Below are positions 1-27,815 of a stretch of 28,402 nucleotides of DNA, one piece after another. The first letter of the stretch is position 1; the number at the start of each line of letters is the position of its first letter. The notes under the pieces are model-generated. The model was not told the origin of the DNA. It saw only the letters and a list, made by a program, of their open reading frames with translations, and searched no databases. The stretch spans positions 1 through 28,402 of the IMG/VR virus record IMGVR_UViG_3300031997_000048; one strand, given 5' to 3'. The position numbers and the translations under genes are program-made. The DNA comes from a virus.

Positions 1-185
1 GCCGCGAGCGCCCCTTCCTCCAGTTCCTCCACCAGGTCAATCGTGATCCGACAGAGCTTGCCGTCGGCGGCGGTGACGCTGTGGACCTCGAATACCGTCG
101 GCACCCCGGCGTAGCCGGGAACGTAAATCCCCGTTACGAGGTAGTCGCCGACAGGCAGGTTGGTGTATTCGATTCCGGATGGCAT
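1..185 (-). CDS. Hypothetical protein, 3' end outside window (61 residues visible)
   Basis: An open frame starts MPSGIEYTNLPVGDY and runs off the left edge without a stop. The start is supported by a strong upstream purine run (AAAGGGGGAT) about six bases before the ATG. The visible part is rich in Val, Thr and Tyr in a beta-strand-like pattern (LVTGIYVPGYAG, TVFEVHSV, KLCRITIDLVEEL), ending in an acidic helix-like stretch. I do not recognise the family. It is the last visible member of the leftward small-gene operon and follows the 33-aa membrane peptide after a 12-base gap. Function unknown; the call rests on the open frame and ribosome binding site only. Confidence 0.65.
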   Translation of the reverse strand, partial: MPSGIEYTNLPVGDYLVTGIYVPGYAGVPTVFEVHSVTAADGKLCRITIDLVEELEEGALA

Positions 186-197
186 GTGATCCCCCTT

Positions 198-299
198 TCA
201 GTAGCAGAAGGCCATGAAGGCCAGAAGCCAGACGTAAACTACCACCACGATCCCGCCCGCGAGCTGGGCGGCGAAGTCAAACCAGTCATCCCTGGTCAT
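198..299 (-). CDS. 33-residue single-pass membrane peptide
   Basis: A very small gene reading MTRDDWFDFAAQLAGG followed by a hydrophobic segment (IVVVVYVWLLAFMAF) that fills the C-terminal half, ending CY. This is the pattern of a one-helix membrane peptide. The frame is open further upstream, but that part is Arg-rich and overlaps the zinc-ribbon gene; the ATG at 299 has a GGAGG box at the right distance, so I chose it. Its start overlaps the end of the upstream zinc-ribbon gene, which implies translational coupling. Function unknown; small membrane peptides in phages can be holin-like, superinfection-exclusion or host-takeover factors, and nothing here separates these. Confidence 0.55.
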   Translation of the reverse strand: MTRDDWFDFAAQLAGGIVVVVYVWLLAFMAFCY

Positions 300-459
300 C
301 GCCGCCTCCGACTGGCGCCTCGATCCAGGTCGGCTTCGAGGTCCGCTCCGGGGCCGGGTCCGCCGCCGCCTGATCCCCATTCCGTTTCGCCCGGCACCGC
401 GGGCAGTAGGTAAGGTCGGGGTCGGAAAAGCGGAAGCCGCAGGAAGGGCAGGTCGGCAT
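286..459 (-). CDS. 57-residue zinc-ribbon protein
   Basis: A short frame encodes a protein that starts MPTCPSCGFRF and continues to TYCPRCRAK. The two CPxC knuckles (Cys4/Cys7 and Cys19/Cys22) form a compact four-cysteine zinc ribbon. The C-terminal half is Pro/Ala/Gly-rich and probably disordered. A GGAAGG box lies about eight bases before the ATG. The gene sits two bases after the 66-aa gene and overlaps the start of the membrane-peptide gene. Zinc ribbons of this size bind nucleic acid or proteins; no catalytic residues are visible. It is the second zinc ribbon in this operon, with no obvious similarity to the other outside the knuckles. Confidence 0.65.
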   Translation of the reverse strand: MPTCPSCGFRFSDPDLTYCPRCRAKRNGDQAAADPAPERTSKPTWIEAPVGGGDDQG

Positions 460-461
460 CG

Positions 462-662
462 CTACACCTTCCGATAGACGTTCAGTCCGACGGTGACGCC
501 CGTAATCTGGAGGTTACCGAGAGTGGAGGCGACGCGATGAGACTTGCCGCTGGCGCTGGGGCCGTGATCTTGTGCCCGATTGAAGCGAAGGTAGACGAGG
601 TCGCCGTCCACGGCCACCTCCAGATTAACCGCTCCCTGCACCTGTTCAAAATTCAATGCCAT
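462..662 (-). CDS. Conserved small protein, 66 residues, GPSxSGK / GLNVYRK motif
   Basis: Starts MALNFEQVQG after a very strong AAAAAGGAGGATCAA leader, which decides the start over a longer frame reaching 818. The protein alternates beta-strand-like segments (AVNLEVAVDGDLVYLRF) with a conserved-looking core (QDHGPSASGKSHRVASTLGN) and ends GVTVGLNVYRKV. I recall small bacterial and phage proteins sharing the GPS-SGK-VAST-GN...GLNVYR pattern, but cannot attach a function. The GPSASGKS stretch looks like a phosphate-binding loop, but the protein is too small for a P-loop NTPase and lacks a Walker B motif. It lies in the leftward small-gene operon between two zinc-ribbon genes. Confidence 0.7.
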   Translation of the reverse strand: MALNFEQVQGAVNLEVAVDGDLVYLRFNRAQDHGPSASGKSHRVASTLGNLQITGVTVGLNVYRKV

Positions 663-697
663 TTGATCCTCCTTTTTGGTTGAAAGCCTCATCATCT

Positions 698-907
698 CTA
701 TCGAGGTAGGGGCTGCATAAAATAGGCAGCCTTGAATGATACCGGCCATTCGTTTTCGATCCAGGGCCACTTTATTAAATGGGTCGTGGCCTGTAGTTTG
801 GTTCCACAGCGAGGGCAATAGGCATCCTTCAGCCTCGACACCTCACGGCGCGGATGGAAACGAAAGGCGATCTTGCAAGTTGGACATTTCCCTTGAATTT
901 CTCGCAT
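698..907 (-). CDS. 69-residue zinc-ribbon protein
   Basis: Starts MREIQGKCPTCKIAF after an AAAAAAAGGAGGG box about eight bases upstream; a longer frame to 970 lacks a comparable site. Two cysteine pairs, CPTC (residues 9-12) and CPRC (near residue 31), are separated by a basic stretch (RFHPRREVSRLK), giving a four-cysteine ribbon. The C-terminal 30 residues are rich in Trp and aromatic residues (KWPWIENEWPVSF). Zinc ribbons in small phage proteins usually contact nucleic acid, ribosomes or RNA polymerase, but no specific role can be read from the sequence. It is the third gene after the strong promoter near 1606. Confidence 0.7.
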   Translation of the reverse strand: MREIQGKCPTCKIAFRFHPRREVSRLKDAYCPRCGTKLQATTHLIKWPWIENEWPVSFKAAYFMQPLPR

Positions 908-982
908 CAATAATCCCTCCTTTTTTTGAAGCCTCATCAGTGCCGGTCCCTCCGGCGGACGGGGGCGCACCCCCCGTTTCGG

Positions 983-1309
983 CTAACGCGTCTGGTTCAA
1001 GGTATCGATCAGAAACCGAAAAACATCGGAGCGAATAGAATCAGGGATGCCGAGGTTGAATGCCTCAATGACTCGCGATCTGACATATTCGGCCCTGGTC
1101 GGGCGGGTGTCGGGCCGGGCGGTGGAAGTCGTAGAGCCGGTGGCCTCCACGTCCTCACGGGCGTTGCGGACGGCCTGGGCGTGCTCGCGCAGGGTCCGGC
1201 GCGTAACGGCCAGGTGGCGGAGGCCGGGGGACTGGCGCTCGGCTTCGGTCAGTTTGTGCGGGGCGTTAAGGTAGCGGCTAATGGTCGGGTGCATGAGTAA
1301 CTTTTCCAT
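983..1309 (-). CDS. Hypothetical protein, 108 residues, helical and basic
   Basis: Starts MEKLLMHPTISRYLN after a GGGAGGAACAATC ribosome binding site; the frame extends upstream to 1417, but that part overlaps the neighbouring gene and reads as Arg-rich shadow. The N-terminal two-thirds is predicted helical and rich in Arg, Ala and Glu (TRRTLREHAQAVRNAREDVEA), then a Thr/Ser/Pro linker (GSTTSTARPDTRPTRAEYV), then a final helix (DSIRSDVFRFLIDTLNQ). No motif is recognised. The low-complexity middle suggests two short helical modules joined by a flexible segment. It is the second gene of the operon driven by the promoter at 1606-1634. Confidence 0.6.
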   Translation of the reverse strand: MEKLLMHPTISRYLNAPHKLTEAERQSPGLRHLAVTRRTLREHAQAVRNAREDVEATGSTTSTARPDTRPTRAEYVRSRVIEAFNLGIPDSIRSDVFRFLIDTLNQTR

Positions 1310-1362
1310 GATTGTTCCTCCCTGTTTGGCGGTCTGGTTGGAAGTCCCGGCCCGGCGGCGGG

Positions 1363-1569
1363 CTAATGAGCCATCTCTCCGAAGGAAACGGAAACGTCTT
1401 TGAGATAACGTGACCATGCCCGATCAACGGCGACCTGCCGGTCCAAGGTGAAAACGTCATAGATCATACCGCCGACCTTGACCCGGAAACCAACGGGATT
1501 CCCATTGGAAGTGCGCGGGGTAACGACCATCGCCGCCTTGACTTCCTCATCGCTGATTATCTTTTGCAT
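1363..1569 (-). CDS. Hypothetical protein, 68 residues, first gene of small-gene operon
   Basis: Reads MQKIISDEEVKAAMVVTPRT and then NPVGFRVKVGGMIYDVFTLD, ending FGEMAH. Two in-frame ATGs compete. The one at 1599 lies only about six bases beyond the -10 element, so a transcript starting normally would leave it leaderless. The one at 1569 has a GGGGGAACGGGG purine run before it, and I chose it. The central part looks like a small beta-barrel (VGFRVKVGGMIYDVFTL), followed by a helix (RQVAVDRAWSRYLKD). No family is recognised. As the promoter-proximal gene it should be the most strongly expressed of the group. Confidence 0.65.
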   Translation of the reverse strand: MQKIISDEEVKAAMVVTPRTSNGNPVGFRVKVGGMIYDVFTLDRQVAVDRAWSRYLKDVSVSFGEMAH

Positions 1570-1605: not shown

Positions 1606-1634
1606 AGTATAACATATCGTTTTATATTTGTCAA
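1606..1634 (-). promoter_or_regulatory. Strong sigma70 promoter, extended -10
   Basis: On the minus strand TTGACA (1634-1629, full consensus -35) is followed by exactly 17 bases and TATACT (1611-1606, one mismatch to TATAAT). TG lies one base before the -10 (TGTTATACT), giving an extended -10 element. The expected start site is around 1599-1601, so it transcribes the leftward small-gene operon. The surrounding 1600-1745 stretch is much more AT-rich than the rest of the window. Confidence 0.88.
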
Positions 1635-1748: not shown

Positions 1749-1757
1749 GTTAGAGAA

Positions 1758-1773
1758 TGTTTCACGTGAAACA
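1758..1773. promoter_or_regulatory. parS: parS centromere site (ParB-binding palindrome)
   Basis: TGTTTCACGTGAAACA is a perfect 16-bp palindrome, flanked by one more symmetric A/T pair. It is identical to the consensus parS bound by chromosomal ParB/Spo0J proteins across bacteria. Reading across it in both directions gives the peptides NVSRET and MFHVKH, the usual translation shadows of parS. It lies in the non-coding hub between the late-operon terminator and the leftward promoter, not inside a gene, so selection for the DNA site itself is the simplest reading. Function in a phage context is inference: loading host ParB, for segregation or gene control. Confidence 0.9.
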
Positions 1774-1891
1774 TTGGCGGCGGACAGGCCCGAATCCCGC
1801 AATCTAGGGGCCAAACTCGGGCAAGGCGGCCTGTTTGGGCCTCCCCGGTTGCCGAGTACCCGGCTGGCGTCGGCAGGCAGTCTAGGGGCGC

Positions 1892-1930
1892 AAAAACCGC
1901 GACCACCGGGGGATCACCAGTGGTCGCGGT
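1892..1930 (-). terminator. Rho-independent terminator of the late operon
   Basis: On the minus strand ACCGCGACCAC pairs perfectly with GTGGTCGCGGT across a 13-base loop, and the stem runs straight into TTTTT then G. The GC-rich 11-bp stem plus U-tract is a classic intrinsic terminator. It lies about 45 bases after the endolysin stop, so it ends the long late transcript before parS and the next promoter. In the plus direction there is no T-run after the stem. Confidence 0.88.
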
Positions 1931-1974: not shown

Positions 1975-2397
1975 TTAGGCAGTTACCCGTTCGCCCAGGA
2001 TGCGGAGGGCGGCCTTGAATCCCATGGGCCTCTTCAACCCATCCTCCGCCCACCGCGCCGTCTCCGGCCTGACGTCGAGGTGAATCCAGCCGCCTGGCCG
2101 GAGATAGATGCCGACGCCCTTGACCATCGGCACCCGCATCGCGGCCTTGTAGAGCTTCCACAGGTCGGGCGCCTGCACGTCGGCGGCCATGCCGAGCATG
2201 TGCTGGCTGTCCTTGGCACCGCCACAGGCTTTGTTATGGCCGGGACAGCGGTAGCCGGAGACGATGTGCAGGGGTTCCCCGACCTCGACCCGGACGGCCT
2301 CAAGCGCCTGGAGGAGCCGGGGCTGAACCTCGCACCGGCCGCACCCGCAGTGGCATTGGAACTCGGAGGTCGAGAAGTGAGCAGAGAGGTCGCCCAT
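1975..2397 (-). CDS. Endolysin, M15-family zinc peptidase
   Basis: A 140-residue single-domain peptidase of the M15A (D-Ala-D-Ala carboxypeptidase-like) family, cleaving peptidoglycan cross-links. It opens with the family's HFSTSEFQC segment, then SGYRCPGHNKACGG (residues 47-60), then SQHMLGMAADV with zinc ligands His66 and Asp73, and later GGWIHLDVR with His106 and Asp108. There is no signal peptide and no cell-wall-binding domain, so release should depend on a holin. A Cys-rich CHCGCGRC stretch follows the N-terminal helix. I chose the ATG at 2397, four bases after the upstream gene; the frame extends to 2490 but that part overlaps the membrane-protein gene and looks like shadow. It is the last gene before the late terminator. 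Confidence 0.88.
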   Translation of the reverse strand: MGDLSAHFSTSEFQCHCGCGRCEVQPRLLQALEAVRVEVGEPLHIVSGYRCPGHNKACGGAKDSQHMLGMAADVQAPDLWKLYKAAMRVPMVKGVGIYLRPGGWIHLDVRPETARWAEDGLKRPMGFKAALRILGERVTA

Positions 2398-2401
2398 GAC
2401 G

Positions 2402-2911
2402 TCACCCCTTCCCGCGCCGGGTGAGCAGGGCCAGGAATCGCTCACGCAGGGGCACGGCGGACCCGTCGGCGCGCTTGATGCTGGCGTCAAGGAATCGGCC
2501 GGCCAGGGCGGTCAGGACCGGGGCCGCCGATTCGACCTGCCGCTTGACCGCCCGTATTTTTCGGGGCAACGATTCCTCGGCAATCTCGGCTGAGGTCGTC
2601 ACCAGGTCCAGGGCGGAGACCGCGGCCTCCTTTCCCCGGCGCTGGTGGATGGCCCCGATGATGGCGGCGACGGCGACCCCGAAGGCCACGATCAAGGTCT
2701 GGTTCACCACCACCCACTCCATCGTCTCCTTGAAGGTCTGGAGCCAGCGCCCGAGATCGAACCCGGTCTGTACGACCGTGGCCGTGGTGTCGGCGGTCCA
2801 ACCCGTCAGCGGAAAAAGGCCGATGGTGGCATAGGCCCAGGCCATAACCACCACTAGCCACATGGCGGCAATGCCAACCGACCACAGCAGAGAGATTATG
2901 AGCCGTTTCAT
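2402..2911 (-). CDS. Two-helix membrane protein, candidate holin
   Basis: A 169-residue protein with two clear hydrophobic segments: residues about 4-32 (LIISLLWSVGIAAMWLVVVM onward) and about 67-88 (VVVNQTLIVAFGVAVAAIIGAI). Between them lies a soluble loop with GRWLQTFKETMEWVV. The second helix is followed by a basic HQRRGK and a long cytoplasm-like helical tail rich in Ala, Glu, Lys and Arg. It lies directly before the endolysin, where holins normally sit, but 169 residues is longer than most two-helix holins and the tail is unusual. Topology and context support a lysis role; the exact class is inference. Its start has a GGGGTGAC box and follows the upstream gene by four bases. Confidence 0.6.
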   Translation of the reverse strand: MKRLIISLLWSVGIAAMWLVVVMAWAYATIGLFPLTGWTADTTATVVQTGFDLGRWLQTFKETMEWVVVNQTLIVAFGVAVAAIIGAIHQRRGKEAAVSALDLVTTSAEIAEESLPRKIRAVKRQVESAAPVLTALAGRFLDASIKRADGSAVPLRERFLALLTRRGKG

Positions 2912-17093: not shown

Positions 17094-18545
17094 TTATCGG
17101 GACGCGATGGTCGCGCCCGCGCTCAATCGCTTCCAGACACAGTTGATGATGAAGGTGCCGCCGGCGTTAAAGGTCTGCGTGTCGGCCCGGATGTAGATTT
17201 TCTTGCCCGAGGCCAGCACCACGTGGCGGCCATAGACGGTCTTGGCGATGGTGTTGACCGTGGTGGTTCCGGTGGTGACTCCGACAATGGTAAAGGTATA
17301 ACTGTCCATGCTGATCGTATCCTGCGCGGTCAGGCTGGTCTGAATGATATGCATGAACTGGTCCGTGCCCTTAACGTTGTCGGTGTAGAACTCCAAGGCG
17401 GCGGTCCCGTTCGCCGACGCCAGCGCGGTCGCGCCCACCTGAATAGTAACGTCCATCAGCAATAGGGTGCCGGAGGCCGCGCCGGTCAAGGCCATGCCGC
17501 CAGTAGCGATGGAAGCGCCAGCCGCGACGGTCGTGGTGGTATAGAAAACAGTTCCGATCGGCAAAACGGTTTCGAGTGTAGTGCCGATCATCTCCGGAGC
17601 CGCGCCGTCGGTGGTCACCACATAATTGCTGAACCACGAACAGGCCGCGGCGACGATGGCGGCGTCAGGGTTGGCCAGGCTGGTACTCTCAATCTCATTG
17701 TCAGCCAAGATGCCGGTCGTGGCCGCCGCCAATTCGATTCCCGGCTCCTGGTCCTTGATCTTGATCCGGTTATCGAGAATGTTAATCTCGGTAACCGCGG
17801 TCGTGCCGTCAATGATGGCGGCGGTCGAGTAGTTGCCGTAAAAATAGTTGTCCTCGATGCTGGTCCGCGCCACGGCTCCACCCATGCCGAGATTGATGGC
17901 CGCTGTGCATGAGGCGTCGGTGATGGCAGTAAAAAACTTGTTGCCACGGATGGTAACATCGTCGGCTCCGGTATTCAGTTCCACCGCCACAACGAACTCA
18001 TCCGTGCCGCTGGCTTCCCCAACGGCGAACTCGCAATTCTCGATCAGGGCATAATCGCCCGCGGCCTCGATGGTGATGCCCAGGGCGGTCGAGGTAATTC
18101 CCGGTCGGAATACCAGATTTTTCAGGGTGACGTTGGCGGCCCCGATGGTCGCCGTCGAATCGGCATAATTGTAATCGAAGCGCGGACGGTCCGATCCTGA
18201 CCCAAGGCCAATGATCGAAATGCCCGCCACATCAGCATCAAAGAACTGCGTCGCGGCGGCTCCCTCCTCGACGTGCCCCGGCATGACGTAGATCGTGTCG
18301 GCCTTGTTATCGGTACAGAGGCCGATGGCATAGTCAACCGTGCCGCACGGACGGGACGGGCTTCGGCCGCAACTGGCATAGTTGGAGCCGACCACGCTTG
18401 ACACATAGAACACCGACCCCGGCTCGGCCGCCTTGTCGATCCAGATCAGGTCGCCGCCTACCTGCCGGTAAGTCACCAGGGCGCCGATGCTCAGGCTGGC
18501 GATGATAACCAGCATGGCGGTCAAAAGCGAAACTTTCTTATTCAC
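17094..18545 (-). CDS. Right-handed beta-helix protein with N-terminal signal/membrane segment, 483 residues
   Basis: Starts with GTG after AAGGAGGATACGAAC. The first 27 residues (NKKVSLLTAMLVIIASLSIGALV) look like a signal peptide or membrane anchor, unexpected for a virion protein. Residues about 45-320 show pectate-lyase-type beta-helix coils: FYVSSVVGSNYASCG, ADTIYVMPGHVEEG, ISIIGLGSGSDRPRFDYN, NVTLKNLVFRPG, YALIENCEFAVG, DVTIRGNKFFTAI, RTSIEDNYFYGNYS, EINILDNRI, GILADNEIES. Residues about 330-483 form a separate beta domain ending FIINCVWKRLSAGATIASR. No obvious catalytic triad of Asp/Glu can be assigned. Located between the capsid group and the connector. It may be a secreted or surface-exposed head fibre or depolymerase-like protein; function inferred. 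Confidence 0.72.
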   Translation of the reverse strand: MNKKVSLLTAMLVIIASLSIGALVTYRQVGGDLIWIDKAAEPGSVFYVSSVVGSNYASCGRSPSRPCGTVDYAIGLCTDNKADTIYVMPGHVEEGAAATQFFDADVAGISIIGLGSGSDRPRFDYNYADSTATIGAANVTLKNLVFRPGITSTALGITIEAAGDYALIENCEFAVGEASGTDEFVVAVELNTGADDVTIRGNKFFTAITDASCTAAINLGMGGAVARTSIEDNYFYGNYSTAAIIDGTTAVTEINILDNRIKIKDQEPGIELAAATTGILADNEIESTSLANPDAAIVAAACSWFSNYVVTTDGAAPEMIGTTLETVLPIGTVFYTTTTVAAGASIATGGMALTGAASGTLLLMDVTIQVGATALASANGTAALEFYTDNVKGTDQFMHIIQTSLTAQDTISMDSYTFTIVGVTTGTTTVNTIAKTVYGRHVVLASGKKIYIRADTQTFNAGGTFIINCVWKRLSAGATIASR

Positions 18546-23410: not shown

Positions 23411-25281
23411 CTTCCATCCTCTGAAACGGTATCATGAACTACCCGGCCATCTTTGTCAAGCCGGGGAGCTTTTTGGGCGTAAACCGACTGCCAGGCCGGG
23501 GCGTCTTTCACCTCCGCCGTCTCTATTTTCCCTAGTATATTGCCATTTCCATCCAGCTTCGGCGCGGGCTGTGCATAGGGCGAAACCTTGTCCGCTGCCG
23601 TCACCAGCCGCGACAGCGCCATGATCGCCGCGACCGTGCCGTCAATTTTCAACTCGCGCTTCTTGGAGCGGACCGGACGGCACTGCTTCCCCGACGCATC
23701 CTGCTGAAGCACGGTGTTGCCGGTCATCCAACGAAACACCGGGTTGCCGCCGTGATTGATTTTCCGCTCCGCTATCCGTTTCTCAAACTCGATGCAGGGC
23801 GCGGTCATCTGATCGTAATTCTGCCTGACGGTGACAATATCAAAATGCTCTTCCTTGATAAGCCGTTGACAAAGGCCCTGCCCGTCAAAGGTCGTATCCG
23901 CTCCGATCTGGCGAATGCCCAGGGGGACACAGATGCGCTTGATTCCATGCAAAAGCGTATCGTCGTCCATAACCTCGCCGGGCGTGGTGATGATGAATCC
24001 CCTGCCAATCCACTCCTCATACCGCTCCCGGTAAACGCCGCTTGATCGCCACGGCCCATTCTCCGGCACCCATAAATATGGAAAAATGATGGTCCGGCCG
24101 CCCATGACCCATTCGAGTACCAGGGCGAAGAAGTCATCGGTCCGGGCGATGTCGAGGCCGGCGAAGATGGCGTTGCCCTTCATCCGGGCCTCCATGTAGT
24201 CGCGCCAGTCCTCCGGGTCCGTCGGCTCGCCCGGCGACGGCCCGCACTGATCCCACTTCCCCATGTCAATCCACATGGTCTCGGATTCGGTTCGATAGTT
24301 GCAGTTCAACCGGAAAAAAGTATTGAGGTACGACGGCATCTTTTGCGCGTTGCCCCAGGCCTCCAACATATTCGATTCAAGTATGGAAGTGCCGAGGCCG
24401 GGATTGGCCTTGCGGAAAATGCCGAGCAGGGTTTCACGGTCGCCCTCGCCCGGCTTCAGCCCGCGCAGAAAATTGATGTCCGGCTCATCCACCTTATAAA
24501 TGATCGGGAGGAAGTAGGGATCGTCAACCGTCCCGTCAATAATCTGCTGCGCATAATCCTGAATGTCGTTGCAGATCGAAACCTGGTCATAATCGGAGGT
24601 GGTAAGGTAAAGGCAGAGGGACTGCTTGCGTTTCATCAGGCCCGCGACGAGGGTATCAACCAGGTCGCGCTCGACCACATGCAATTCGTCAATGACTACC
24701 AGGTTCGGAATCTTGCCGTGTTTCGTCTCGGCCTTACTCGAGAGGATGGAGAAAAAGTCCGGCTTGCCCTTGAGCTTGATTGACCGCTTCCAAGGCTCAC
24801 ATCGCTCCGCCAACCAGGGGTCGTCAAGCACCTGCTCCTTGGCGATCCCGAAAAGCATGTCGGCGGTTTCAGCGTCGGCGCTGGCAACGAATATCTGCTT
24901 GCCCGCCTCCGGGTCCTTGGTCAGAACCAGCAGGGCAATCGCCGCCGCCAGGGTGGTTTTGGAATTGCCCTTGCCGATGAAATAAAGCGCCTTGCGATAA
25001 CGCCGGGTGCCGTCGGCGCGCTTCCATCCAAACAGGTTGGCAACCAGGGCCTTCTCATGCGCGCCCAGGATGTAGGGCCGGTGGCCGAGTTCGCCGCTGA
25101 CGTGCTTGAAATGTTTTTCGATCCACTCGATAGCGACGGCGGCATTGCCCGCATCAAATACGAGTTCCAATTCCGCCGCTCCACGGCAGGGATCGTAGTT
25201 GGGAACGGCGCGGATGATGGCGAGCCATTCGGCGGGAATATCGGCGGGAGCATAGAGCAGCTTCGGCTTGGGTTTAGTCAT
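23407..25281 (-). CDS. terL: Terminase large subunit, 624 residues
   Basis: DNA-packaging motor and nuclease. The ATPase has Walker A GKGNSKT at residues 103-109 (FIGKGNSKTTLAAAIALL) and Walker B LVVIDE at 194-199, with a coupling-type LTTSDYD after residue 226. The nuclease domain shows GLDIARTDDFFALVL (Asp377), IGADTTFDG (Asp462) and ELKIDGTVAAIMALSR (Asp547), the three acidic positions of an RNase-H-like fold. Length is normal for the Terminase_1/HK97-like group. The start at 25281 overlaps the upstream ParB-like stop by four bases (ATGA). Unusually, it is separated from the small subunit by a four-gene cassette. Confidence 0.93.
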   Translation of the reverse strand: MTKPKPKLLYAPADIPAEWLAIIRAVPNYDPCRGAAELELVFDAGNAAVAIEWIEKHFKHVSGELGHRPYILGAHEKALVANLFGWKRADGTRRYRKALYFIGKGNSKTTLAAAIALLVLTKDPEAGKQIFVASADAETADMLFGIAKEQVLDDPWLAERCEPWKRSIKLKGKPDFFSILSSKAETKHGKIPNLVVIDELHVVERDLVDTLVAGLMKRKQSLCLYLTTSDYDQVSICNDIQDYAQQIIDGTVDDPYFLPIIYKVDEPDINFLRGLKPGEGDRETLLGIFRKANPGLGTSILESNMLEAWGNAQKMPSYLNTFFRLNCNYRTESETMWIDMGKWDQCGPSPGEPTDPEDWRDYMEARMKGNAIFAGLDIARTDDFFALVLEWVMGGRTIIFPYLWVPENGPWRSSGVYRERYEEWIGRGFIITTPGEVMDDDTLLHGIKRICVPLGIRQIGADTTFDGQGLCQRLIKEEHFDIVTVRQNYDQMTAPCIEFEKRIAERKINHGGNPVFRWMTGNTVLQQDASGKQCRPVRSKKRELKIDGTVAAIMALSRLVTAADKVSPYAQPAPKLDGNGNILGKIETAEVKDAPAWQSVYAQKAPRLDKDGRVVHDTVSEDGR

Positions 25282-25835
25282 TTAATTTTCTCGTTCAAAA
25301 CATCCTTGCGGGCGACGGAAAACGTGGCCCCGCACTCGGGACAGGATAGGCTGATCATGCTCTCGGCCTCTTGCCCCGCTCCGCCCACATCATCGAAGCG
25401 GGCGGCGGCGCTTTCGGATTCTGCCCGCGCCTGCTCGTTAGTTACCGCCTTATTCCCTACCCCGATAAGATTGTCAATATCTTCAAAGAATACTTTGAAG
25501 TCAAAGGCGTTGTCTATTTCCCGCAATTCCGGGATAAGTTTATCCCAATCCCATTCGGAAAATTCACTGGTTCTATTATCCGCTATCCGATATTCCTTTA
25601 CCTTGCCGGGCGGCAGGTCCACTATAACGCAGTCGGCCTCATCCATTCCCAGATTCATCAATGCCCGGTAACGGGTATGACCGGCGATGATGGTCAATTC
25701 CCGATCCAGGATCAAGGGAGTATTGAAGCCAAACCGCTTGATTGATTCCTCCACCGCCTTGACCGCCCGCTCATTCTTTCGCGGGTTACGCCAGTAGGGT
25801 TTTATCAGCGCCAGCTTAATCTTTTCCGTTTGCAT
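25278..25835 (-). CDS. ParB/sulfiredoxin-fold protein, 185 residues
   Basis: The N-terminal 95 residues match the ParB N-terminal (ParB/Srx) fold: IKLALIKPYWRNPRKNERAV, FGFNTPLILDRELTIIAGHTRYRAL with the nucleotide-contacting GHTRYRA motif at residues 52-58, and a final strand ADCVIVDLPPGKVKEYRIADNRTSEF. There is no ParB-type helix-turn-helix after it, so it is not a canonical segregation ParB. The C-terminal part holds a CPEC pair (165-168), half of a possible zinc ribbon. Phage relatives are often annotated as ParB-like nucleases. Its ribosome binding site (AAGGAA) lies inside the upstream gene, which it overlaps by 20 bases. Confidence 0.8.
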   Translation of the reverse strand: MQTEKIKLALIKPYWRNPRKNERAVKAVEESIKRFGFNTPLILDRELTIIAGHTRYRALMNLGMDEADCVIVDLPPGKVKEYRIADNRTSEFSEWDWDKLIPELREIDNAFDFKVFFEDIDNLIGVGNKAVTNEQARAESESAAARFDDVGGAGQEAESMISLSCPECGATFSVARKDVLNEKIK

Positions 25836-26379
25836 CTTGCCATTCCTTTTTCAGCCGTATCTGCCGGGTCGTTTCCCACGCCTTACGGTATTCCGTATTT
25901 TCAAAGAGCTTGGCGAACCCGGAAATATATTTCATGCGGACCAACTCGTCGGCCTCCATGCCAAGATCCCGGCAGATGGCGGCATCGTCCATCCCGTTTT
26001 CAAGCATGTTGAAAACCATGTTGCTCATCCCGGCGACGGAGTGCTTTCCCCGCGCCCGGTTATGCCTGATGGTCGAGGCCATGCGGTCATTGATCGGCTT
26101 GTCGATCACCACGACGGGAAGTTCGCCCCCGGTCCGCTCATAAATATCGGGATAAAGTTTCATCACCAGGTGCCGGTGAAAGCCGTCAACGATGATATAC
26201 TTATCCGTAATTGAATCGTAAACGCAGACAACCGGCTGCGTATAGCCGTCATGGAGGATGGAAGTATAAAGTAAATGCAGTTCATTGTCGGCGACGGAGT
26301 TGGGGTTATAATCGTTCGCCTGCACCTGGGCGAGCGACACCCACTTAACGCCCGACACCGGCTGGTCATCGTGGTTCAA
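25816..26379 (-). CDS. IbrB-like ParB-fold protein, 187 residues
   Basis: ParB/Srx core: WVSLAQVQANDYNPNSVADNEL, GYTQPVVCVYDSITDKYIIVDGFHRHLVMKLY with DGFHRH (65-70) at the nucleotide-binding position, and LPVVVIDKPINDRMASTIRHNRARGKHSV. The RHNRARGKHS segment followed by a helical region with SNMVFNMLENGMDDAAICRDLGM (helix-turn-helix-like) and a final helical part is the pattern of IbrB proteins, which pair with DUF3440/IbrA enzymes. The start is a TTG with a GGGAG box; no better ATG is available. It lies just after the 113-aa protein (14-base overlap) and downstream of the IbrA-like gene. Confidence 0.78.
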   Translation of the reverse strand: MNHDDQPVSGVKWVSLAQVQANDYNPNSVADNELHLLYTSILHDGYTQPVVCVYDSITDKYIIVDGFHRHLVMKLYPDIYERTGGELPVVVIDKPINDRMASTIRHNRARGKHSVAGMSNMVFNMLENGMDDAAICRDLGMEADELVRMKYISGFAKLFENTEYRKAWETTRQIRLKKEWQDANGKD

Positions 26380-26707
26380 CTATTGACTCCCGATTGATGA
26401 TAAAAGTTTCCGGCTCCGTTCCCCGATGCGGATGTCCGGCGGGATAGATCGGGCACCCCATCGTCCAGTATTTCCATCCGTCGAGTTCAAGATAAACGTG
26501 AACCTTTTTGAAAAAAGGTTTAGGGTCGCCCTGGTCCCGGATGAATTGAGCGAACCAGCAGAACTCCGCGTCGAACTCCGGCATCTTATCCCTTACCGTG
26601 TACCAATGAGGGAAGGTCTTGGCATAGGTCTTAGCCCACACCCAAGGCACGGACGCGATGTAGGCGCGGGCGCGATCCCAATCAGGCTTCGGCGGCAAGC
26701 TCGGCAT
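26366..26707 (-). CDS. Hypothetical protein of the IbrAB-like cassette, 113 residues
   Basis: A compact, aromatic-rich protein: ARAYIASVPWVWAKTYAKTFPHWYTV, EFDAEFCWFAQFIRDQGDP, KKVHVYLELDGWKYWTMG, and the end PETFIINRESIVEPR. The strand KVHVYLELDGWKYWTMG and the FIINR end look like a small alpha-beta enzyme-associated domain. I recall related standalone domains in phages but cannot name a family or activity. The gene begins inside the 3' end of the IbrA-like gene (26-base overlap) and overlaps the IbrB-like gene, so all three are likely translated together and may work in one complex. Confidence 0.6.
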   Translation of the reverse strand: MPSLPPKPDWDRARAYIASVPWVWAKTYAKTFPHWYTVRDKMPEFDAEFCWFAQFIRDQGDPKPFFKKVHVYLELDGWKYWTMGCPIYPAGHPHRGTEPETFIINRESIVEPR

Positions 26708-27815
26708 TCGCTTTCTCTTTCAATTCAATCCGCAACTGGCACCGGCCCGGCGCGTCATCAAAGTTTTTCAGCTTGATCCCTTCCCAGTCATTCGTAAGTA
26801 TAGACTGAATTTGCATCTTGTAAAGTTTATCCCCGTACTCGCCCCGATAGGCTTTCTCTTGCGAGTCGATCTTCTTGCGGAATCCGGCCCGCCATTTCGG
26901 GTTAGTGAATAAATGCTCTAACAAATAATCACGGTATTCTTTCCAGGATGAGAACATAAAGGGCAAGGTCCGCTGAAAGTAATCGGCCTTTCCCATCTTG
27001 CCCGCCATGTCGATCCCCGATATTCTTTGACACAACCGCTCATAGGTAGCGGGTTCAATTTCTTGCAAATAAAAAAGGGAGTGGACCGCCGTTTCATGGT
27101 GGACATTAGAAACCCGCATACCAGAAACCGGCACCCCATATTGATACATTAAGTCATATATCCTATTATACGGCCACTTATTACAATGAATTGCTTTCCA
27201 AACGTCGGTGTAACTCCAATCGTAAATAGGATAGAAAGTATAATGCCCGCGCTTCTTGTCCTCTACCTTCCCCCAGGTAGCCCACTTATAGGTCCGATAT
27301 GAAGTCAACCCAAACGCCCGTGACGGTGACTCTTCCGCCCTAACTCCCGCAAGGTGACAGGCCGGAGACGAAGGGAAGTCGTGAACCATGAATGCTTTAA
27401 ACATATCATGGAAGCGATCCTTCCCATATACGTTTTCCTTTATCGAGATAGGGTCTTTGGGCCGCATCCAACGGGCCTCTTCTTTCGGGTCCCAACAGTT
27501 AAGCCAATGCTCCTCTACCGACGTGGCATTAAACAGCCGGAAGGGAATCTGATACCACAAAGGAAGGACATCGGGCCGGTACATGATCTCGCGCACGGTG
27601 TCCGCCGTCGCTTGCCACTCCGCCTCCTGGTCAAGCCACATAACCCGGAGCGGCAACCGGCCCCGCTCTTGCGCCACCATCATCGCTAGATTGAAAATAA
27701 CCGTCGAATCCTTGCCGCCGGATATGTCAATTACTATATTTTCAAACTCATCGAATACGAAGCGGATGCGTTTCAGAGCTTCATCAAAAACGTTGGTTGA
27801 CTTATAAATCTTCAT
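26682..27815 (-). CDS. PP-loop PAPS-reductase-like enzyme (DUF3440/IbrA type), 377 residues
   Basis: An ATP-pyrophosphatase (PP-loop) signature IDISGGKDSTVIF has SGGKDS at residues 32-37, as in PAPS reductases, DndC and IbrA. Later family features are MWLDQEAEWQAT, ACHLAGVRAEESPSRAF (157-163 core GVRAEES), YPIYDWSYTDVWKAI (195-209) and RVSNVHHETA (234-243). These fit DUF3440, the family of E. coli IbrA, better than a cysteine-pathway PAPS reductase. Chemistry is adenylation of a substrate via ATP; the substrate is unknown. The start overlaps the small-terminase stop (ATGA). With the two ParB-fold genes it forms an IbrA/IbrB-like cassette. Confidence 0.83.
   Translation of the reverse strand: MKIYKSTNVFDEALKRIRFVFDEFENIVIDISGGKDSTVIFNLAMMVAQERGRLPLRVMWLDQEAEWQATADTVREIMYRPDVLPLWYQIPFRLFNATSVEEHWLNCWDPKEEARWMRPKDPISIKENVYGKDRFHDMFKAFMVHDFPSSPACHLAGVRAEESPSRAFGLTSYRTYKWATWGKVEDKKRGHYTFYPIYDWSYTDVWKAIHCNKWPYNRIYDLMYQYGVPVSGMRVSNVHHETAVHSLFYLQEIEPATYERLCQRISGIDMAGKMGKADYFQRTLPFMFSSWKEYRDYLLEHLFTNPKWRAGFRKKIDSQEKAYRGEYGDKLYKMQIQSILTNDWEGIKLKNFDDAPGRCQLRIELKEKANAELAAEA

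Follow-up and report, generated by a model that had tools for sequence, protein, structure and literature searches.

A host-type parS site on a phage genome fragment and the spread of such orphan sites among unrelated phages

Why does a stretch of phage DNA carry, letter for letter, the site at which bacterial chromosomes are bound by ParB? The window (the whole 28,402-base stretch analysed here) is an IMG/VR virus fragment, and the genome beyond its ends may hold a ParB of the phage, an integrase or more sites. The 16-bp core TGTTTCACGTGAAACA at 1758–1773 is the parS consensus with 0 mismatches in a scan of the window, i.e., an exact match to TGTTNCACGTGNAACA, and it is embedded in a perfect 20-bp palindrome. 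The sequence-only reading that drew attention to the locus had described a perfect palindromic parS at 1757–1774; perfection and place are both confirmed, the palindrome proving longer than claimed, while the exact span is not, being one base too wide on each side of the core. No other perfect palindrome in the 28.4 kb reaches 16 bp, and a search for extra copies found no other parS with ≤3 mismatches anywhere in the 28,402-base record. A first-order Markov model gives an expected count of 2.4e-6 for the 16-mer in the window, close to the 7e-6 proposed earlier. No credible ORF covers the site, which is in non-coding DNA, and the two elements said to flank it, a terminator and a promoter, are both real and both on the minus strand. 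The features at this end of the window are as follows.

1–1569, minus strand: leftward cassette of seven tiny ORFs (33–108 aa), driven by the promoter at 1634–1606
1606–1634, minus strand: strong sigma70-type promoter, TTGACA-17-TATACT, 11/12 consensus match
1652–1716, no strand: spaced inverted repeat upstream of the promoter, arms CCGCATATT (1652–1660) and AATATGCGG (1708–1716); possible operator pair
1731–1748, no strand: another inverted repeat and possible operator, TGTAGCA-AAAA-TGCTACA, separated from the parS palindrome by 7 bp
1756–1775, no strand: parS, 20-bp perfect palindrome AATGTTTCACGTGAAACATT, from palindrome and motif scans
1896–1930, minus strand: intrinsic terminator (14-bp arms, 7-nt loop, T run; −39.3 kcal/mol, z −7.2) closing the leftward late operon
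1975–2490, minus strand: M15-family endolysin, last gene of the late operon

The late genes point leftward, with the small terminase subunit (28354) at one end of the series and the endolysin (1975–2490) at the other. The “late/early boundary” suggested for this region is a fair guess, in which the left operon is a candidate early operon. The −35 hexamer of the promoter begins 122 bp from the edge of the parS palindrome, and the full TGTAGCA-AAAA-TGCTACA element occurs once in the window. Most ORFs of the cassette are preceded by Shine–Dalgarno-like purine runs (GGAGG or GGGGG), and two of them (286–459 and 698–907, minus strand) encode tiny zinc-ribbon-like proteins with paired CxxC motifs.

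No relative that spans the parS locus was found. IMG/VR searches with TerL, the endolysin, and the promoter-side 20-mer returned no relatives, a search with the major capsid protein (MCP) returned one 99% sister of 8.2 kb (L122) that ends short of parS, and a genome search with TerL found no relative. TerL is ~32% identical to that of phages of Firmicutes, and the nearest IbrA-like genes in genomes, 29% identical, are in Lachnospiraceae MAGs.

The parS sequence itself, by contrast with control palindromes, is widespread among viruses. Our survey counted exact matches only, and its IMG/VR counts for parS are lower bounds: the 16-mer is present in at least 120 stretches, and the 20-mer palindrome alone in more than 120. 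Because 16 of the 120 16-mer stretches listed contain the 20-mer, which by itself exceeds 120, we estimate ~900 or more 16-mer stretches in IMG/VR, an extrapolation that assumes the same record order in both scans. Among annotated phage records, 286 of 50,697 contain the exact 16-mer and none contains the control palindrome TTGTTCACGTGAACAA, which has identical dinucleotides and occurs in 5 IMG/VR stretches in a complete scan; a second control palindrome, TTTGTCACGTGACAAA, occurs in 11. In the same collection, the parS 16-mer thus outnumbers the controls by a factor of 10 to 24 or more. TTTGTCACGTGACAAA is a poor control and probably itself an element, since 9 of its 11 contigs (L240–L250) encode a tyrosine integrase, with matches that span almost identical parts of the profile; a single phage group may use the sequence as an att or operator element. 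A plasmid search with the 16-mer gave 0 matches, but in a collection of a size at which no 16-base match passes the E-value limit. The TGTTTC form of the site is dominated by phages of Gram-positive hosts, and the TGTTCC form is most frequent in Pseudomonas phages.

Most loci have one site (103 of 120). The densest array seen by far is that of bajarodino virus 6 (PQ006149.1, Inoviridae), in which six exact copies of TGTTTCACGTGAAACA (at 635, 662, 1414, 2857, 4096, and 5628) share 5.9 kb, several of them in intergenic gaps. In the Gordonia phages Orchid and MrWormie (L131, 8481; L257, 5511 and 5932), longer GC-rich inverted repeats have parS at their tip, for example AGGCGCA-TGTTTCACGTGAAACA-TGCGCCT, as though the site were merged with a terminator hairpin. 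Arthrobacter phage JasmineDragon has five parS-like sites, four with an altered outermost base (e.g., TGTTTCACGTGAAACC/G), hinting that a shorter 14-bp core may be recognised in actinobacterial hosts.

Terminase, portal, capsid, and lysis genes are among those adjoining the 120 sites, and no neighbouring gene family recurs apart from one TerL family. This family, the phrog_38 terminase large subunit, adjoins parS at 10 of the 120 IMG/VR loci (L002–L121) versus 2 of 109 in the control set, which suggests a lineage with parS fixed beside TerL. A preference for the endolysin gene, as the layouts of the phi29-like phages, Voltaire, L062, and the window might imply, does not hold in general, few endolysins being found by the 120 sites.

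These sites are orphans. The canonical ParB DNA-binding domain HTH_ParB (PF17762) was found in 0 of the 93 parS-bearing viral records tested, in a search that matched 9 of 14 control genomes, and a ParA-type ATPase in 0 of 34 carriers. Integrases are few (tyrosine type in 3 of 34 carriers, serine type in 3 of 50; raw counts without a matched base rate), which agrees with the sites residing on unintegrated DNA; the chromosome would then be left undisturbed by them. Within the 28.4-kb fragment, HTH_ParB is likewise absent, both ParB-fold proteins included, and no ParA-like gene is present among the identified proteins, so that no parA/parB pair was found in the fragment and the window differs from the self-contained parABS type (P1, RedRock). 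P1/N15-type plasmid prophages, whose partition systems are also based on ParB–parS, have their own ParA and ParB and parS sequences unrelated to that of the window. Mycobacteriophage RedRock is an extrachromosomal phage with a centromere, but it encodes ParA and ParB itself, and the RedRock parS consists of eight copies of an 8-bp direct repeat and is not host-type (PMC7157519). The closest sequence is the chromosomal bacterial parS, identical over 16 bp, from which the window copy differs in being single, on phage DNA, and with no parAB nearby.

Variation among the sites fits a ParB reader. Over the 120 loci (1.05 Mb), one-mismatch copies are concentrated at position 5 (15 copies, T to C) and position 1 (5 copies), with one at position 8 and none at the remaining five half-site positions; the control palindromes have no copies or near-copies in these loci. 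Judged by the letters, this pattern is the known tolerance of ParB, with the consensus TGTTNCACGTGNAACA. Additionally, T is favoured in the flanks at +1 (57%) and +2 (50%); the window has T there, and its A/T flanks agree with the extended motif of phage parS sites.

The best precedent is phi29, which has four perfect consensus sites, including sites inside the coding regions of genes 10, 15, and 17. The site at the end of gene 10 is kept in 5 of 5 phi29-like phages from three genera, in which the neighbouring sequence has diverged, and orthologous sites of these phages vary solely at the N positions of the consensus. The site after gene 16 is present in phi29, Goe23, and Chedec 11, and has been lost in B103 and Goe1. 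In phi29 and other Salasmaviridae, a host-consensus parS is an orphan in a phage with no canonical ParB, as it is within the 28.4 kb of the window, and the phi29 site at 17243 immediately follows the last late gene, next to a bidirectional terminator, a layout similar to that of the window. Unlike phi29, whose small protein-primed genome holds four sites and whose sporulating host is known, the window phage is siphovirus-like and has one known site. The window site is a real host-type parS on phage DNA, of the phi29 kind, and is almost certainly functional.

The likely reader is the host ParB, because the carriers tested lack a canonical ParB, the sites vary as ParB sites do, and they are conserved in the phi29 group; with high confidence, we would assign the window parS to that protein. 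ParB binds CTP, loads at parS as a clamp, and slides along DNA (PMC12704722). In phi29, according to the part of PMC9437464 that cites Meijer et al. (2005), Spo0A halts the lytic cycle and Spo0J (ParB) carries the phage chromosome into the spore. We infer both the binding of host ParB to the window site and its benefit to the phage, as follows. Host chromosomal ParB–CTP clamps would load at 1756–1775 and slide onto the flanking phage DNA, coating the neighbourhood, and the bound ParB would link the phage genome to the host ParA/Soj and SMC machinery. An unintegrated genome could thereby be held and positioned while its host grows slowly, divides, or differentiates and is not ready for lysis. 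We regard this overall explanation, a host-ParB loading site serving genome positioning and retention, as moderately probable, and for the purpose taken singly, retention or positioning of the unintegrated genome, we lean slightly in favour.

The capture of host ParB, already proposed in the sequence-only reading, is strongly supported by the comparative data and the phi29 precedent, although that reading named neither this precedent nor the very wide occurrence of the site in phages; segregation, compaction or positioning, and promoter control are roles between which the window cannot decide. Segregation as an episome does not hold up as the general purpose, because many carriers, among them the phi29-like phages and the Listeria P100-type phages, are virulent.

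The main rival is promoter silencing. ParB would spread from parS over the promoter 122 bp away and repress the small-ORF operon, or make it conditional on the cell-cycle state of the host, partition being incidental. The position of parS between a terminator and a strong promoter would suit such a switch, and P. aeruginosa ParB does repress genes beside parS3 and parS4 (PMC5521831). Furthermore, about a third of the IMG/VR sites (33 of 104) are intergenic, versus 6% at random, as counted with a crude ORF caller. Many phage sites are nevertheless intragenic, such as those in the phi29 genes, and across phages no particular neighbour gene recurs, so that a position next to a promoter is not general. 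We consider a transcription switch possible but rather unlikely as the explanation.

Less probable still, and in our view improbable, is that parS acts as a decoy, replicating phage genomes titrating ParB away from the host origin and upsetting segregation and replication control to the advantage of the phage. Multi-copy carriers would suit this idea, with six exact sites in the 5.9-kb inovirus and five in 6.3 kb in another locus (L017), and so would virulent carriers, to which partition is of no obvious use. The window phage, however, has one known site, as do the large majority of loci counted above, and a lone high-affinity site would be a poor titrator early in infection; the decoy fits multi-site phages better than this one.

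Two proteins of the window have a ParB fold and might be thought to read the site themselves.

25278–25835, minus strand: ParB_N-domain protein (phrog_620), without an HTH_ParB domain
25816–26379, minus strand: IbrB-like ParB-fold protein (phrog_2159), paired with an IbrA-like PAPS reductase at 26682–27815

The IbrB-like protein is 57% identical to proteins annotated as IbrB beside IbrA in Streptococcus phages. Between the terminase subunits (25278–27815) lie the IbrA-like PAPS reductase, with DUF3440, a small unknown gene, the IbrB-like gene, and the second ParB_N gene; the same gene types are also clustered at another parS-bearing locus, L080. Both proteins have ParB_N similarity, and a low-confidence single-sequence model places an HTH-like helix pair at 132–160 of the IbrB-like protein. 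On the other side, neither contains HTH_ParB, and their TIGR00180 scores of 17.2 and 24.3 bits are far under the 58.45-bit cut-off, in keeping with the earlier remark that neither has the full canonical ParB layout. The site is, moreover, the host-type consensus of unrelated phages. Of 50 parS carriers, just 4 have a member of the IbrB-like family, one of them with a strong match; phage parS is therefore not usually read by this family, and a phage IbrB in that role is not supported. The window PAPS reductase and ParB-fold gene do resemble phage IbrA/IbrB pairs, but with no sign of action on parS. That either protein reads the site is, accordingly, very doubtful.

It is equally doubtful that the left 1.9 kb is host chromosome, a prophage flank near oriC. 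The parS lies 1.8 kb from the contig end, and no convincing database match was found for the left-end ORFs. Against this, the left end is a compact cassette of tiny genes on the same strand, mostly with strong Shine–Dalgarno sequences, and in base composition and tetranucleotide signature it is much like the remainder of the contig, so it looks like phage DNA and not host flank; this also meets the concern, raised at the outset, that the segment might be chromosomal. The structural and lysis genes (terminase, portal, capsid) next to parS in other viral contigs further argue against host contamination, which we reject. Finally, a chance 16-mer, for which one site in one contig is all that might be said, is refuted statistically by the low expectation in the window and the rarity of the controls, and its probability is negligible.

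Loading of host ParB thus remains our preferred reading, and we think it likely to be general: the orphan host-type parS would be a device for borrowing host ParB that many phages without close kinship, most of them non-integrating, each acquired on their own (tailed phages, phi29-like phages, microviruses, and inoviruses), with phi29 merely the first case and the window phage an example outside the phi29 group. The phi29 trick with host ParB is known; the surprise is its breadth, far wider than one case implies, and the wide spread among unrelated phages is a more interesting result than the window site itself. We found no systematic account of orphan phage parS in the open-licence papers searched. 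The survey yields a list of isolates for testing, together with a simple sequence signature. ParB–parS is the most widespread bacterial chromosome-segregation mark, and if many phages copy parS, then host ParB, ParA, and SMC would be common points of phage–host interaction. If so, the role of a lone parS in a virulent phage would be testable in culture, with phi29 relatives and with Arthrobacter, Gordonia, and Microbacterium phages.
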